Under the pieces are notes generated by a model. That model saw only the letters and a list, made by a program, of their open reading frames with translations, was not told the DNA's origin and did not search any database. From Candidatus Latescibacterota bacterium (GTDB taxonomy: Bacteria; JAAXHH01; JACQVL01), in NCBI GenBank assembly GCA_016209865.1, contig JACQVL010000118.1:1-22615 (forward strand): a stretch of DNA of 22,615 nucleotides. The letters run 5' to 3'. Numbering within the stretch: the first letter of the stretch is position 1; each line of letters opens with the position of its first letter. Position numbers and translations under genes: made by a program. Shown here in pieces: positions 3,980 to 22,411 of the stretch.

Positions 3980-3980
3980 T

Positions 3981-4147
3981 TAAGGACGAAGGATGAAGGA
4001 CGAAGGACGAAGTAAGGACGAAGAGAGCAAGGACGAAGGCCAAAGAACGAAGGCCAAAAGTGACGAAGAGAGCGAAGAAAATAAAGGAAGAATGTCTTTT
4101 TCGTCCTTCGCCCTTCGTCCTTCGTCCTTGCCTTTCTCTCCTTTCCT
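3981..4147. repeat. Inverted heptamer repeat (AAGGACG family) forming a long imperfect hairpin
   Basis: The left arm (3981-4060) has repeated purine-rich units AAGGACG/AAGGATG and starts 1 nt after the tupB stop. The right arm (about 4100-4147) is its pyrimidine-rich complement, with four tandem heptamers CGTCCTT, CGCCCTT, CGTCCTT and CGTCCTT at 4102-4129. The arms could pair as a long imperfect hairpin around about 40 nt. The same family borders the four-helix-bundle gene at 16583-17041. The right arm lies inside the ATPase reading frame. Confidence 0.85.
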
Positions 4148-6927: not shown

Positions 6928-8250
6928 ATGATCAGACGACCCCTCTTATTGGTGCTCTTTCTTCTGATCCCATCCGAATCATTCGGCCAGCGAGTGCAGG
7001 TCCCTCTCACCGTGACGCGCCACCGGCTGGAGAACGGCCTCCAGATCCTGGCCCGCGAAGATCATTCCCTGCCGGTCATCAGCTTCTACACGTTCTTCAG
7101 AGTCGGTTCCCGGAATGAGACGGTCGGTCTGACGGGTATCTCTCATCTGTTCGAACATCTGATGTTCAACGGCGCGAAAAAATACGGGTCGAAGGAATTC
7201 GACCGGGTGCTGGAAGCGAACGGCGGGTTCTCGAACGCCTACACCATCACCGACATGACGTCGTACTACCAGAATTTTCCGAGCGACAAACTTGAACTCA
7301 TCATCGACCTCGACTCCGACCGTATGGCCAGTCTCGCCCTGACCGAGGAGAGCCTCCGGTCAGAACGGGAGGTGGTCAAGGAAGAGCGGGGTCTGCGGAT
7401 TGACAATGAGGTGTCCGGTGCGATGATGGAACAGTTGTACGCGCTCGCCTACCTGGCCCATCCGTACCGGTGGCAGACAGTCGGGTGGATGTCCGACCTG
7501 GACAACATCACGCTCCAGGACTGCCGCCAGTTCTTCCGCACCTACTATGCGCCCAACAACGCGGTCATCGTCCTCTCCGGGGATTTCAAGACGGAGGAGG
7601 CGGTCGCGCTCATCCGGACGTATTACGGCGGGATTCCATCACAGCCGCCTCCCCGGCCTGTCGGGACGATCGAGCCGGAGCAGCGGGGCGAGCGGCGAGC
7701 GGTGTTCCAGAAGCCGGCAGAGCTCCCCGCTCTCGCCGTCGGCTACCACGGGCCGTCTGTCCGGAGTGAAGACATCTTCGTCCTGGAGGTGCTGGAGGTG
7801 CTCCTTGCCCGTGGGGAGAGTTCCCGGCTGTACCGGCGGCTCGTCTACGAGGAGCAGGCTGCCGTGTCGGTGTCGGCCGCGTTCCCGTGGATGCTCGACC
7901 CGGGCCTGCTCACGTTCTCGGTCGAAGTCAAACCGGACCAGAAGACGGAGGAGGTGGAAGGACTGCTCTACGCTGAGATCGAGCGGCTGAAGCAGGAGCC
8001 AGTCCCGGATCGCGAGCTGCGGAAAGCCAAAAACATCCTTCAAGCCGAGTTCGTCAAAGGTCTGGAGACGAACAACGGGACAGCGGACAACATCGGGATG
8101 TATGAGCTCCTCTTCGGCGACTGGTCGATGATGAGGACGGCGCTCGACCGGTATGAGGCGGTGACGGCGGAGGACGTGGCCCGCGTGGCCCGGGCGTACT
8201 TGTCGGACTCCAGCCGGACGGTTGTGACGTTGATCCCGGAGGTAGAATGA
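6928..8250 (+). CDS. Secreted M16 family zinc metallopeptidase, catalytic subunit
   Basis: This 440-residue protein begins with a signal peptide (MIRRPLLLVLFLLIPSESFG, about 1-20), so it acts in the periplasm or outside. The inverted zinc motif HxxEH is intact as HLFEH at residues 73-77. The distal Glu ligand lies in VVKEE near 149-153. The second domain ends with the usual M16 C-terminal region (VARVARAYLSDSSRTVVTLIP). At 440 residues it is a half-length, processing-peptidase-like subunit that works with a partner. The next gene overlaps it by 4 nt (ATGA) and encodes an M16 protein without the zinc motif, so the two very likely form a heterodimer. Substrates are unknown; such pairs usually degrade peptides. 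Confidence 0.93.
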   Translation: MIRRPLLLVLFLLIPSESFGQRVQVPLTVTRHRLENGLQILAREDHSLPVISFYTFFRVGSRNETVGLTGISHLFEHLMFNGAKKYGSKEFDRVLEANGGFSNAYTITDMTSYYQNFPSDKLELIIDLDSDRMASLALTEESLRSEREVVKEERGLRIDNEVSGAMMEQLYALAYLAHPYRWQTVGWMSDLDNITLQDCRQFFRTYYAPNNAVIVLSGDFKTEEAVALIRTYYGGIPSQPPPRPVGTIEPEQRGERRAVFQKPAELPALAVGYHGPSVRSEDIFVLEVLEVLLARGESSRLYRRLVYEEQAAVSVSAAFPWMLDPGLLTFSVEVKPDQKTEEVEGLLYAEIERLKQEPVPDRELRKAKNILQAEFVKGLETNNGTADNIGMYELLFGDWSMMRTALDRYEAVTAEDVARVARAYLSDSSRTVVTLIPEVE

Positions 8251-9779
8251 TGGAACGGATGAGGCGGGCAGTGGGCGGTGAAAAGGGAAGAATGGGCGAA
8301 TGGGCGTATGGGAGCAGAAAAGTATGGGAGTATGGGAGTGTGGGAGTAAGAGCCTTTTATTCGTTGCTCCCATACCCCCATACCCCCATACGTCTTCTCC
8401 CTTTTCCTTTTCGCCTTTTCGCCCTCTTTCTTTTTCTCTTGCTCACTGCCCCTGCTCACAGCGCGGACATCGTCCTGCCGTCTCCGCAGCGAACCGTCCT
8501 CCCGAACGGCCTGACCGTGCTCATCCTGCCCCAGGAGAAGCTCCCTCTCGTCGTCTTCCGGATGGTGATCCGGGCGGGCGCGGCGGCGGACCCGGACGGC
8601 AAAGCGGGGCTGGCCAACCTGACGGCCAGCCTGCTGAAGCAAGGGGCGGGCGGGCGAACGGCGGCGCAGATGGCAGAGGAGGTCGAGTTCCTCGGTGGAA
8701 GCTTGGAGGCGGAGAGTACGTACGATGCCACCTTCATCACCGGGCAGTTCCTCTCACGGGATATGGAGAAGGGACTGTCCCTCCTGGCGGATATTCTCAT
8801 CCGTCCGTCCTTCACGGATGAAGAAGTCGAGCGGGAGCGGGATCAGATGCTGGCAACCCTCGCGCAATCGCGTGAGGATGCTGAGTATCTTGCGGACATC
8901 TTCTACAACCGGTTCCTGTTCGGGCGGCATCCGTACGGCCGGCCAGATCTCGGGACAGACACCTCCGTCGCCGGGCTGACCCGGCTGGACGTCGTCGAGT
9001 TCCATCGGAGGTACTACGCGCCCAACAACGCGTTCGTCGTGGTCGTCGGCGACGTGAAGCCAGCGGAGACGATCCGGCTGGTGACCCTCCTCTTCGGGAC
9101 ATGGTCGCGGCGGGCGGTTGTCTCGCGGCCATTGCCGCACACGACCGGCCTCCAGGGACGACGGGTGTGGCTCGTCGATAAGCCTGATATGACGCAATCC
9201 CAGGTCTGCATCGGCAACCTGGGCATTCCCAGGAATCATCCCGACTTCTTTCCGGTCGTCGTCGCGAACACGGTGTTCGGCGAGGGATTTACCTCGCGGC
9301 TGATGAACGAGGTCCGGGTCAACCGGGGACTCACGTATAGCATCGGGAGCGTGTTTCCGGCGCGGAAGGAACGGGGCGCGTTTCTCATCTACACGTCCAC
9401 CAGGAACGAGACGACCGGGGACCTCATCGACGCGGTGCTGGCGGAGCTGAAGCGATTTCGGGAGGACGGCGTCTCTGAGACGGAATTGGCGGCGGCTCAA
9501 CAGTACCTCCGAGGCCAGTTTCCCCTCAGCCTCGAAGGACCGGAGGCGCTGGTCGAGCAGATCGCCCTCATCGAGCTGTACCAGTTGCCCGCCGATTCCA
9601 TCCGGACATACTCGCAGCGCATCCAGGCGGTCAACCGGGCCGATGTCCTGCGTGTGGCCCGGCAGTACTTCGCGTACGAGTCGCTGGGCATCGTGGTGCT
9701 GGGCAACACGGCGCAGGTGAAGCCTCAGGTTGAACGGTTCGGCCCGGTCGAGGCGCATGTGTTTGACGAGGAATGGTAA
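8247..9779 (+). CDS. Secreted M16 family protein, non-catalytic partner subunit, with repeat-encoded N-terminus
   Basis: This 510-residue M16 homologue has no HxxEH: the equivalent region reads KAGLANLTASLLKQGAGG. It should be the structural, substrate-binding partner of the peptidase just upstream, with which it shares ATGA. Typical M16 features are RTVLPNGLTVLILPQEKLPLV, FHRRYYAPNNAFVVVVGD and VNRGLTYSIGS. The N-terminus is odd. A hydrophobic signal-peptide core (RLFALFLFLLLTAPAHSA, about 56-73) is preceded by about 50 residues encoded by an inverted octamer repeat. The true start is uncertain: 8247, ATG 8292 and GTG 8340 are all in frame, and the last gives the most normal signal-peptide length. 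The repeat places start codons in three frames, which could allow frame switching. Confidence 0.88.
   Translation: MMERMRRAVGGEKGRMGEWAYGSRKVWEYGSVGVRAFYSLLPYPHTPIRLLPFPFRLFALFLFLLLTAPAHSADIVLPSPQRTVLPNGLTVLILPQEKLPLVVFRMVIRAGAAADPDGKAGLANLTASLLKQGAGGRTAAQMAEEVEFLGGSLEAESTYDATFITGQFLSRDMEKGLSLLADILIRPSFTDEEVERERDQMLATLAQSREDAEYLADIFYNRFLFGRHPYGRPDLGTDTSVAGLTRLDVVEFHRRYYAPNNAFVVVVGDVKPAETIRLVTLLFGTWSRRAVVSRPLPHTTGLQGRRVWLVDKPDMTQSQVCIGNLGIPRNHPDFFPVVVANTVFGEGFTSRLMNEVRVNRGLTYSIGSVFPARKERGAFLIYTSTRNETTGDLIDAVLAELKRFREDGVSETELAAAQQYLRGQFPLSLEGPEALVEQIALIELYQLPADSIRTYSQRIQAVNRADVLRVARQYFAYESLGIVVLGNTAQVKPQVERFGPVEAHVFDEEW
8267..8460. repeat. Composite inverted octamer repeat inside the start of the second M16 gene
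   Basis: The left arm (8267-8349) is purine-rich and includes tandem octamers TATGGGAG, TATGGGAG and TGTGGGAG at 8323-8346. The right arm (8365-8460) is its pyrimidine-rich complement, with CCCATACC-type octamers at 8370-8392. It then has CTTTTCC/TTTTCGCC runs and GCTCACTGCCCCTGCTCAC, which mirrors GGGCAGTGGGCGGTG at the left end. The segments occur in mirrored order, so the whole could fold as a hairpin of nearly 200 nt. The right arm encodes the signal peptide. The layout matches 3981-4147, though the unit sequence differs. Confidence 0.8.
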
Positions 9780-16582: not shown

Positions 16583-17041
16583 GCAAGGACGAAAAAGCAA
16601 GGACGAAGGACGAAAAAGAAAAATCATTCTTTTGCTGCATTCTTAATGATGGTCGTAAGAATCTTCAGGAGTTCCTCGGATTCAGCGATTAAAGAGTCGA
16701 TGTCAGAAGGGCTGTTGTTGACACCATTTGCTGCTACGATTCTCAGCCAATACTTTGTTTCTCTGGCTTCTTTTCGAGCAATCGAGTATTTGGAAACAAA
16801 GTCAGCCCGGCTTTGTCCTGCCTGTGCCTCCTCGACGTTTGCGCCGATGGAAGTCTCTGCACGAAGAAGCTGGTGAGCTAAAGATCGAGCGACACCGGGT
16901 GTCTGATCGAGATTCCGGCACAGCTTAACAATACGCAACGCAAACTCAAATGTTCGTTCACAAATCTCATACGGTGGCTTGTTTTTTCCTCCCACTTTTT
17001 TTCTCTCTTTTTCGTCCTTCGGCCTTCGGCCTTCGTCCTTA
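16583..17041 (-). mobile_element. Putative insertion unit: four-helix-bundle gene between inverted AAGGACG repeats
   Basis: A left arm at 16583-16622 (GCAAGGACGAAAAAGC and on) and a right arm at about 17002-17041 (the complement of TAAGGACGAAGGCCGAAGG and on) are inverted copies; one 19-nt block matches at 18 positions. They enclose a single small gene that is visibly richer in A+T than all neighbours. The unit fits exactly between two stop codons: it begins 3 nt after the ferredoxin reductase stop, and the bicupin stop (17039-17041) forms its right edge. No transposase is present, so mobilisation would need outside help. Calling it mobile is inference from composition, borders and the habit of this family to sit as insertions. 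Confidence 0.55.
16624..16995 (-). CDS. Four-helix-bundle protein, 23S rRNA intervening-sequence (S23/Avd-like) family
   Basis: This 123-residue, fully helical protein contains the family core RAETSIGANVEEAQAGQSR (about residues 45-63) and SIARKEARETKYWLR (71-85). The family (PF05635/TIGR02436-like) was first found in intervening sequences inserted in 23S rRNA genes and shares its fold with bAvd, the accessory protein of diversity-generating retroelements. Solo copies are common between genes in many environmental phyla, and no function is established for them. The start is GTG at 16995 with a weak purine-rich upstream region; PYEICERTFEFALRIVKLC follows as in relatives. It is AT-rich against a GC-rich background and enclosed by inverted heptamer repeats, both signs of insertion. 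It does not belong functionally to the operon upstream on its strand, though it could be read through from it. Confidence 0.87.
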   Translation of the reverse strand: MGGKNKPPYEICERTFEFALRIVKLCRNLDQTPGVARSLAHQLLRAETSIGANVEEAQAGQSRADFVSKYSIARKEARETKYWLRIVAANGVNNSPSDIDSLIAESEELLKILTTIIKNAAKE

Positions 17042-22367: not shown

Positions 22368-22386
22368 GGAAAAGGCTCCTTAAGAG

Positions 22387-22411
22387 AGTGACAAGTGACG
22401 AGTGACGAGTA
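22387..22411 (+). repeat. Tandem heptamer repeat (AGTGACG family) in the leader of the M16 gene
   Basis: AGTGACA, AGTGACG, AGTGACG and AGTA run in tandem. Read in the sense of the minus-strand M16 gene this is the pyrimidine-rich strand, ending about 19 nt before the ATG and just before AAGGAG. Its orientation and place relative to the gene match those of the 143-168 copy before the Asp-box gene. Confidence 0.8.

Follow-up and report, generated by a model that had tools for sequence, protein, structure and literature searches.

Two adjacent genes encoding M16 peptidase-like proteins are found on the plus strand of the window, i.e. the whole stretch of 22,615 nucleotides that was analysed. The upstream gene (6928-8250) matches Pfam PF00675 and PF05193 above cut-off and carries the HxxEH motif in the form HLFEH. 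The second gene (8247-9779), also assigned with Pfam, codes for a protein of 510 residues in which no HxxEH zinc motif was seen, unlike its partner; the two proteins therefore probably form a dimer of one catalytic and one non-catalytic subunit. The start region of the second gene (8238-8252, plus strand), delineated from the sequence and from relatives, contains an RBS-like GGAGG (8238-8242) followed by ATG 8247 and ATG 8250, both of which overlap the stop codon of the first gene (TGA, 8248-8250). The distance from the end of GGAGG to ATG 8250 is 7 nt. Alignment with the corresponding proteins of two relatives, G011 and G001, reveals approximately 50 extra residues near the N-terminus of the second protein. 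These are followed by the rest of the signal-peptide core and a cleavage-site-like AHSA (LFLFLLLTAPAHS, 8425-8463, plus strand), located by alignment with the native signal peptides of the relatives. Signal peptides were assessed throughout by visual inspection and from alignments. The peptides encoded within 8250-8420 in the M16 frame include MGEWAYGSR and AFYSLLPYPHTPIR. Codon-usage gene calling, which employs a home-made model trained on the window, places the best-scoring start of the second gene at 8439.

The DNA coding for the extra residues corresponds to a palindromic element of about 152 nt (8273-8424, edges within a few bases, no strand assigned) which is in frame and was delimited from copies in the same genome and from its absence in the same gene pair of the two relatives. 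Period-8 arms (GTATGGGA and CCCATACC) are nested within outer arms (GAAAAGGG and CCTTTTCGCC). Reading along the plus strand, an outer G-rich octamer block ATGGGCGAATGGGCGTATGGGAG (8292-8314; repeat family D1, inverted pair I1) precedes an inner G-rich arm (8322-8346) made of a G and the three octamers TATGGGAG (8323-8330), TATGGGAG (8331-8338) and TGTGGGAG (8339-8346). The inner C-rich arm (8369-8391), identified by TRF and by the inverted-repeat pairs, comprises 2.9 copies of CCCATACC with a 100% match, and the outer C/T-rich arm TTTCCTTTTCGCCTTTTCGCCC (8403-8424; inverted pairs I8 and I10) codes for FPFRLFA. The 28 nt at 8322-8349 are 86% complementary to 8364-8391 (inverted pair I2), the two left blocks (8287-8316 and 8322-8349) are each able to pair with 8364-8394, and in the outer arms 8277-8289 pairs with 8403-8423 (GGTGAAAAGGG with CCTTTTCGCC). 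Hairpin formation is predicted from these inverted repeats and from RNA folding, as the segment 8247-8463 reaches -118.7 kcal/mol, compared to -70.9 +/- 4.5 in 200 shuffles (z -10.75). The plus strand also contains a G-quadruplex motif (8285-8312) whose loops do not exceed 7 nt. A longer palindrome extending into the signal-peptide core (8266-8276 with 8441-8451) was discarded, its arms being short and possibly due to chance.

The octamers are real and not a chance pattern. The three tandem units listed by the original prediction were found in the sequence exactly where it had placed them, and ATG 8324, ATG 8332 and GTG 8340 do fall in three different frames; the M16 frame, however, contains GTG 8340 only and neither ATG. 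The C-rich octamers were likewise present, at 8369-8391 instead of 8370-8392. That reading had left out the 8292-8314 block, the outer arms, the upstream in-frame ATG 8247/8250 with its GGAGG, and the repetition of the element throughout the genome. The source assembly consists of 356 contigs at 83% completeness, and in such a fragmented genome the number of octamers in a long hairpin is open to mis-assembly.

The same M16-M16 pair lies side by side in G011 (51% protein identity) and in G001 (42%, fragment). In both relatives the second gene begins on the stop codon of the first (GTGA and TAATG), an overlap identical in kind to that of the window, and its signal peptide is ordinary (VRHALYRTVFLLLAVTLSARAQD and MHRIAMAVALCVCSALISVHPVEAQ). 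The element is absent from this gene pair in G011 and G001. In the alignment of the proteins it appears as an extra block of approximately 50 residues between MMERMRRAV and LFLFLLLTAPAHSA, so that an in-frame insertion into a protein gene is observed by comparison with these two relatives. The claim that the repeat lies in an open reading frame leading into a signal peptide was thereby borne out, the position of the 8247/8250 start being conserved in both.

A BLAST search of the source genome with 8247-8463 returned 19 matches at E<1e-3, the window itself included. The best other match displays 85% identity over 119 nt, and the best ones range from 80 to 85% over about 100-125 nt. With at most 2 mismatches allowed, a two-octamer pattern was counted 43 times in this genome, versus 2 for the reversed control. 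Roughly ten further hairpins of this type, mostly with three octamers per arm, are located within or at the edge of intergenic gaps. The 15 other loci were placed by the gene caller in gaps between genes, with only the copy on contig C313 sharing some 40 nt with the start of a called gene; three copies (C295, C64 and C140) lie between convergent genes. The octamers and the loop (GAGCC...TCTGTT) are common to the copies on C291, C295, C64, C140 and C142, and the outer GAAAAGGG and CCTTTTCGCC arms are present in most of them. Octamers were counted on the contig plus strand with one mismatch allowed in 11 C-rich arms (window, C291, C295, C64, C140, two on C142, C66, C313, C154 and C309): three units are present in ten of them and four in the remaining one. 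The G-rich arms hold two or three units, and a few looser loci consist of two-unit arrays. The open frames differ from copy to copy, and PFRLFAF, derived from outer-arm octamers, is found in the signal peptide of one other gene, on C192. There (C192:426-481, minus strand, locus L137), a TPR-like protein begins with MHLFPSSPFRLFAFFPLLLLLNC, a lipoprotein-like signal whose core is partly encoded by CGCCTTTT octamers.

The octamer repeat at 8273-8424 is not private to the M16 gene but represents a single copy of a dispersed element that forms a hairpin. With many similar copies, mainly outside genes, and a predicted hairpin, it belongs with the dispersed intergenic palindromic repeats, as an ordinary representative of this poorly understood kind. 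No match to the Y1 transposase family of REP type (PF01797) was obtained in the 83%-complete genome, and REP/RAYT mobilisation was rejected on that ground.

The most probable explanation, which we hold with good but not complete confidence, is that a copy of the element entered the second M16 gene in frame, at its 5' end, and that it constitutes a tolerated repeat and not a switch. It builds on direct observations, namely the dispersed and mostly intergenic copies, the absence in two relatives, the open frame and the conserved start position. The dispersed hairpin element would have come into the second gene of the M16-M16 operon after the split from the compared relatives, presumably copied from another site of the genome, and would have landed in the n-region of the signal peptide; gain here was preferred to loss in the relatives by parsimony, these relatives being distant (51% and 42% protein identity). 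The gain appears to have preserved the reading frame, and since the frame is kept, ribosomes can read through the element from 8247/8250. Translation would be coupled to the end of the upstream M16 gene, start at one of these ATG codons and proceed across the element, and the roughly 50 added residues would separate the charged n-region (MMERMRRAV) from the hydrophobic core LFLFLLLTAPAHSA. The C/T-rich right arm would supply F, L and P residues which merge smoothly into the signal-peptide core, and export of the second M16 protein presumably still works. Persistence of the element at this site would most likely result from the unbroken frame and not from switching, and the favoured view is that the repeat is tolerated and has no role specific to this gene. 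Against this explanation, neither a transposase nor a target-site duplication came to light (the edges of the element are too fuzzy to define duplications), and GTG 8340 or TTG 8364 could serve as alternative starts with the element as a leader. A more adventurous suggestion, which we consider doubtful, is that the C/T-rich octamer arms provide a store of preformed hydrophobic segments, supplying part of the signal-peptide core wherever they land at a gene start; the cases in point are the M16 gene (LLPFPFRLFALFLFLLLTAPAHSA) and the TPR-like protein on C192.

The leader alternative deserves some attention. The element would then be a non-coding leader or regulatory hairpin, with the true start at GTG 8340, TTG 8364 or a more downstream codon, and the hairpin or the G-quadruplex would tune the second gene. 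The codon usage of the element is indeed not coding-like, the hairpin is very stable, the G-quadruplex motif at 8285-8312 lies on the plus strand, and a GGGAG ends 9 nt 5' of GTG 8340. The Shine-Dalgarno sequence at 8247/8250 is nevertheless better, its start position is common to the relatives, and internal start codons would be hidden within the stem or next to it. Moreover, a leader needs no open frame, and only about 10% of insert shuffles are open in a given frame. We regard a leader as unlikely. Much less probable still is a role as a terminator of transcription in both directions, or as an RNA-processing hairpin, with a polar effect on the second gene: several copies do sit between convergent genes (C295, C64 and C140) and are flanked by A-rich and T-rich stretches, but the window copy is inside an operon and RNA fold energies have no consistent strand preference. 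A simple terminator scan was also silent on the element, although its 3-8 nt loop limit would miss the long loop. Strand preference of RNA folding was considered as a sign of an RNA role in its own right and dropped, the sense and antisense energies being patternless over seven copies.

In Neisseria, opa genes vary phase through CTCTT repeats located in signal-peptide codons, with many identical units and observed switching. The M16 element resembles this system by a repeat in signal-peptide codons whose unit is not a multiple of three, and differs from it by having 2-3 units. The original prediction had proposed that the second M16 subunit would be turned on or off, or its export altered, through slippage of the octamers. 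Its frame arithmetic holds: given a start at 8247/8250, one octamer more or less breaks the frame and truncates the protein. With 1, 2, 3, 4, 5 or 6 octamers in the left arm, the product lengths are 28, 188, 510, 36, 196 and 518 residues, respectively; among one to five units, the full 510 residues are obtained from the present count only, the others yielding 28-196. The unit, which is not a multiple of three, lies within the coding frame, where its count would set an ON or OFF state. One octamer tract of Haemophilus influenzae differs between strains, which carry from 1 to 6 units (PMC2651432), an observation in line with the proposal. The lower limit used for octamer SSRs in that species is however 3 uninterrupted units, and the 7-8-nt tracts proposed to vary phase have mostly 8-17 (PMC2651432). 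An uninterrupted tract of at least three octamers does not exist here, the left arm having two identical units and one altered, and the right arm 2.9. The C-rich arms of the hairpins in the same genome are nearly invariant (three octamers in all but one of the 11), and the other copies are intergenic, where there is no frame to switch. The authors of the study on Xanthomonas and Nostoc heptamers judged phase variation unlikely for similar dispersed repeats (PMC4692102). With a short and impure tract, a near-constant octamer number and mostly intergenic copies, the on/off switch is unsupported, and we consider it very improbable.

A literature search for octamer hairpins returned nothing direct, but several known systems are comparable to the tolerated repeat favoured here. 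In Rickettsia, palindromes of about 150 bp are inserted in frame into genes (reviewed in PMC10969869). These Rickettsia palindromic elements (RPE) and MITE-like repeats share with the present element the size, the palindromic structure, the dispersion and an in-frame copy in an unrelated protein gene; RPEs have a conserved ORF and are often in genes (PMC10969869), whereas nearly all copies here are intergenic and their arms are octamer ladders. The GGGNATC heptamers of Xanthomonas and Nostoc (Rehm et al. 2015, PMC4692102) are also dispersed, G-rich, invertible short-unit arrays capable of forming G-quadruplexes, biased to intergenic DNA near gene ends and of unknown function; the unit here is 8 instead of 7, there are usually three units per arm and not four, and a nested palindrome with a conserved loop is present. 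Geobacter metallireducens harbors multicopy octanucleotide pairs on opposite strands, i.e. inverted tandem octamers in tens of copies, intergenic with some within genes, as well as heptanucleotide elements; its octamers differ from ours by their sequence (GTTGCTYN), by their four units and by being putative regulator binding sites (PMC2700814). The TAACTGA repeats of Beggiatoaceae, cyanobacteria and Bacteroidetes are similarly short-unit, intergenic, near start codons and patchy across phyla, but are 7-nt direct repeats and hardly ever inverted (PMC4679880).

Short-unit arrays are abundant in the source genome. In 122 kb of sampled sequence, 35 tandem arrays of period 7-8 were detected, i.e. 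28.8 per 100 kb, a density of the sampled stretches and not a whole-genome count. Most of them (28 of 35) lie largely outside long ORFs, although non-ORF sequence represents only 15.5% of the total; their units include AGTGACG, AAGGACG, GATTTTG and AATCCAA. The same treatment applied to relatives belonging to the same order gave four arrays in G013 (55 kb), and none in G011 (54 kb) or G002 (60 kb). Of the 15 other genomes examined in the phylum, 14 lack the octamer pattern itself, the exception being G013 with three 2-mismatch matches. Within the window, a heptamer palindrome (AAGGACG / TTCGTCC, 3980-4145) fills the start of an ABC-transporter ATPase gene. An ORF from 3993 remains open through it (MKDEGRSKDEESKDEG...SSFALRPSS), and the N-terminus of this ATPase may consequently be repeat-derived too. 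Further heptamer arrays (143-167, 1179-1209, 16599-16614, 17011-17040 and 22386-22410; units ACTCGTC, AGTGACG, AAGGACG, TTCGGCC and GAGTGAC) are situated in or at the edge of gaps.

A total of 84,980 species, represented by a single genome each, were also scanned for the two-armed octamer pattern, and 36 stretches were found in MAGs under labels including Chloroflexi, Desulfonatronospira, Armatimonadetes, Kiritimatiellaeota, Chloracidobacterium, Rhodothermia, Bacteroidetes and others. Judging from these sequences, the octamer palindromes are not unique to one lineage; their loops and flanks differ in the MAGs of other phyla. Octamer palindromes with the same GTATGGG / CCCATAC unit as here occur in MAGs of several unrelated phyla (L101-L136), some of them directly before a start codon. 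A single Desulfonatronospira MAG contains several long octamer-hairpin copies (L102, L109, L113, L122, L127, L131, L132 and L135), three of which (L102, L109 and L122) have flanks in common (GGCCTTAAGAAG...), a feature that suggests a mobile unit. Transfer between phyla was not accepted as proven by the shared octamer, because the pattern was picked from the window and any unit would match some genomes.

A tempting but unsupported claim of phase variation is thus replaced by a genome-wide picture, in which the intergenic gaps of one lineage are filled with palindromic arrays of 7-8-nt units that its relatives lack, and at least one of these arrays appears to have entered a protein. Gene callers will misplace starts at such repeat sites. 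The genome renders testable both the multiplication of arrays without a known transposase and the occurrence of similar octamer hairpins in distant phyla.
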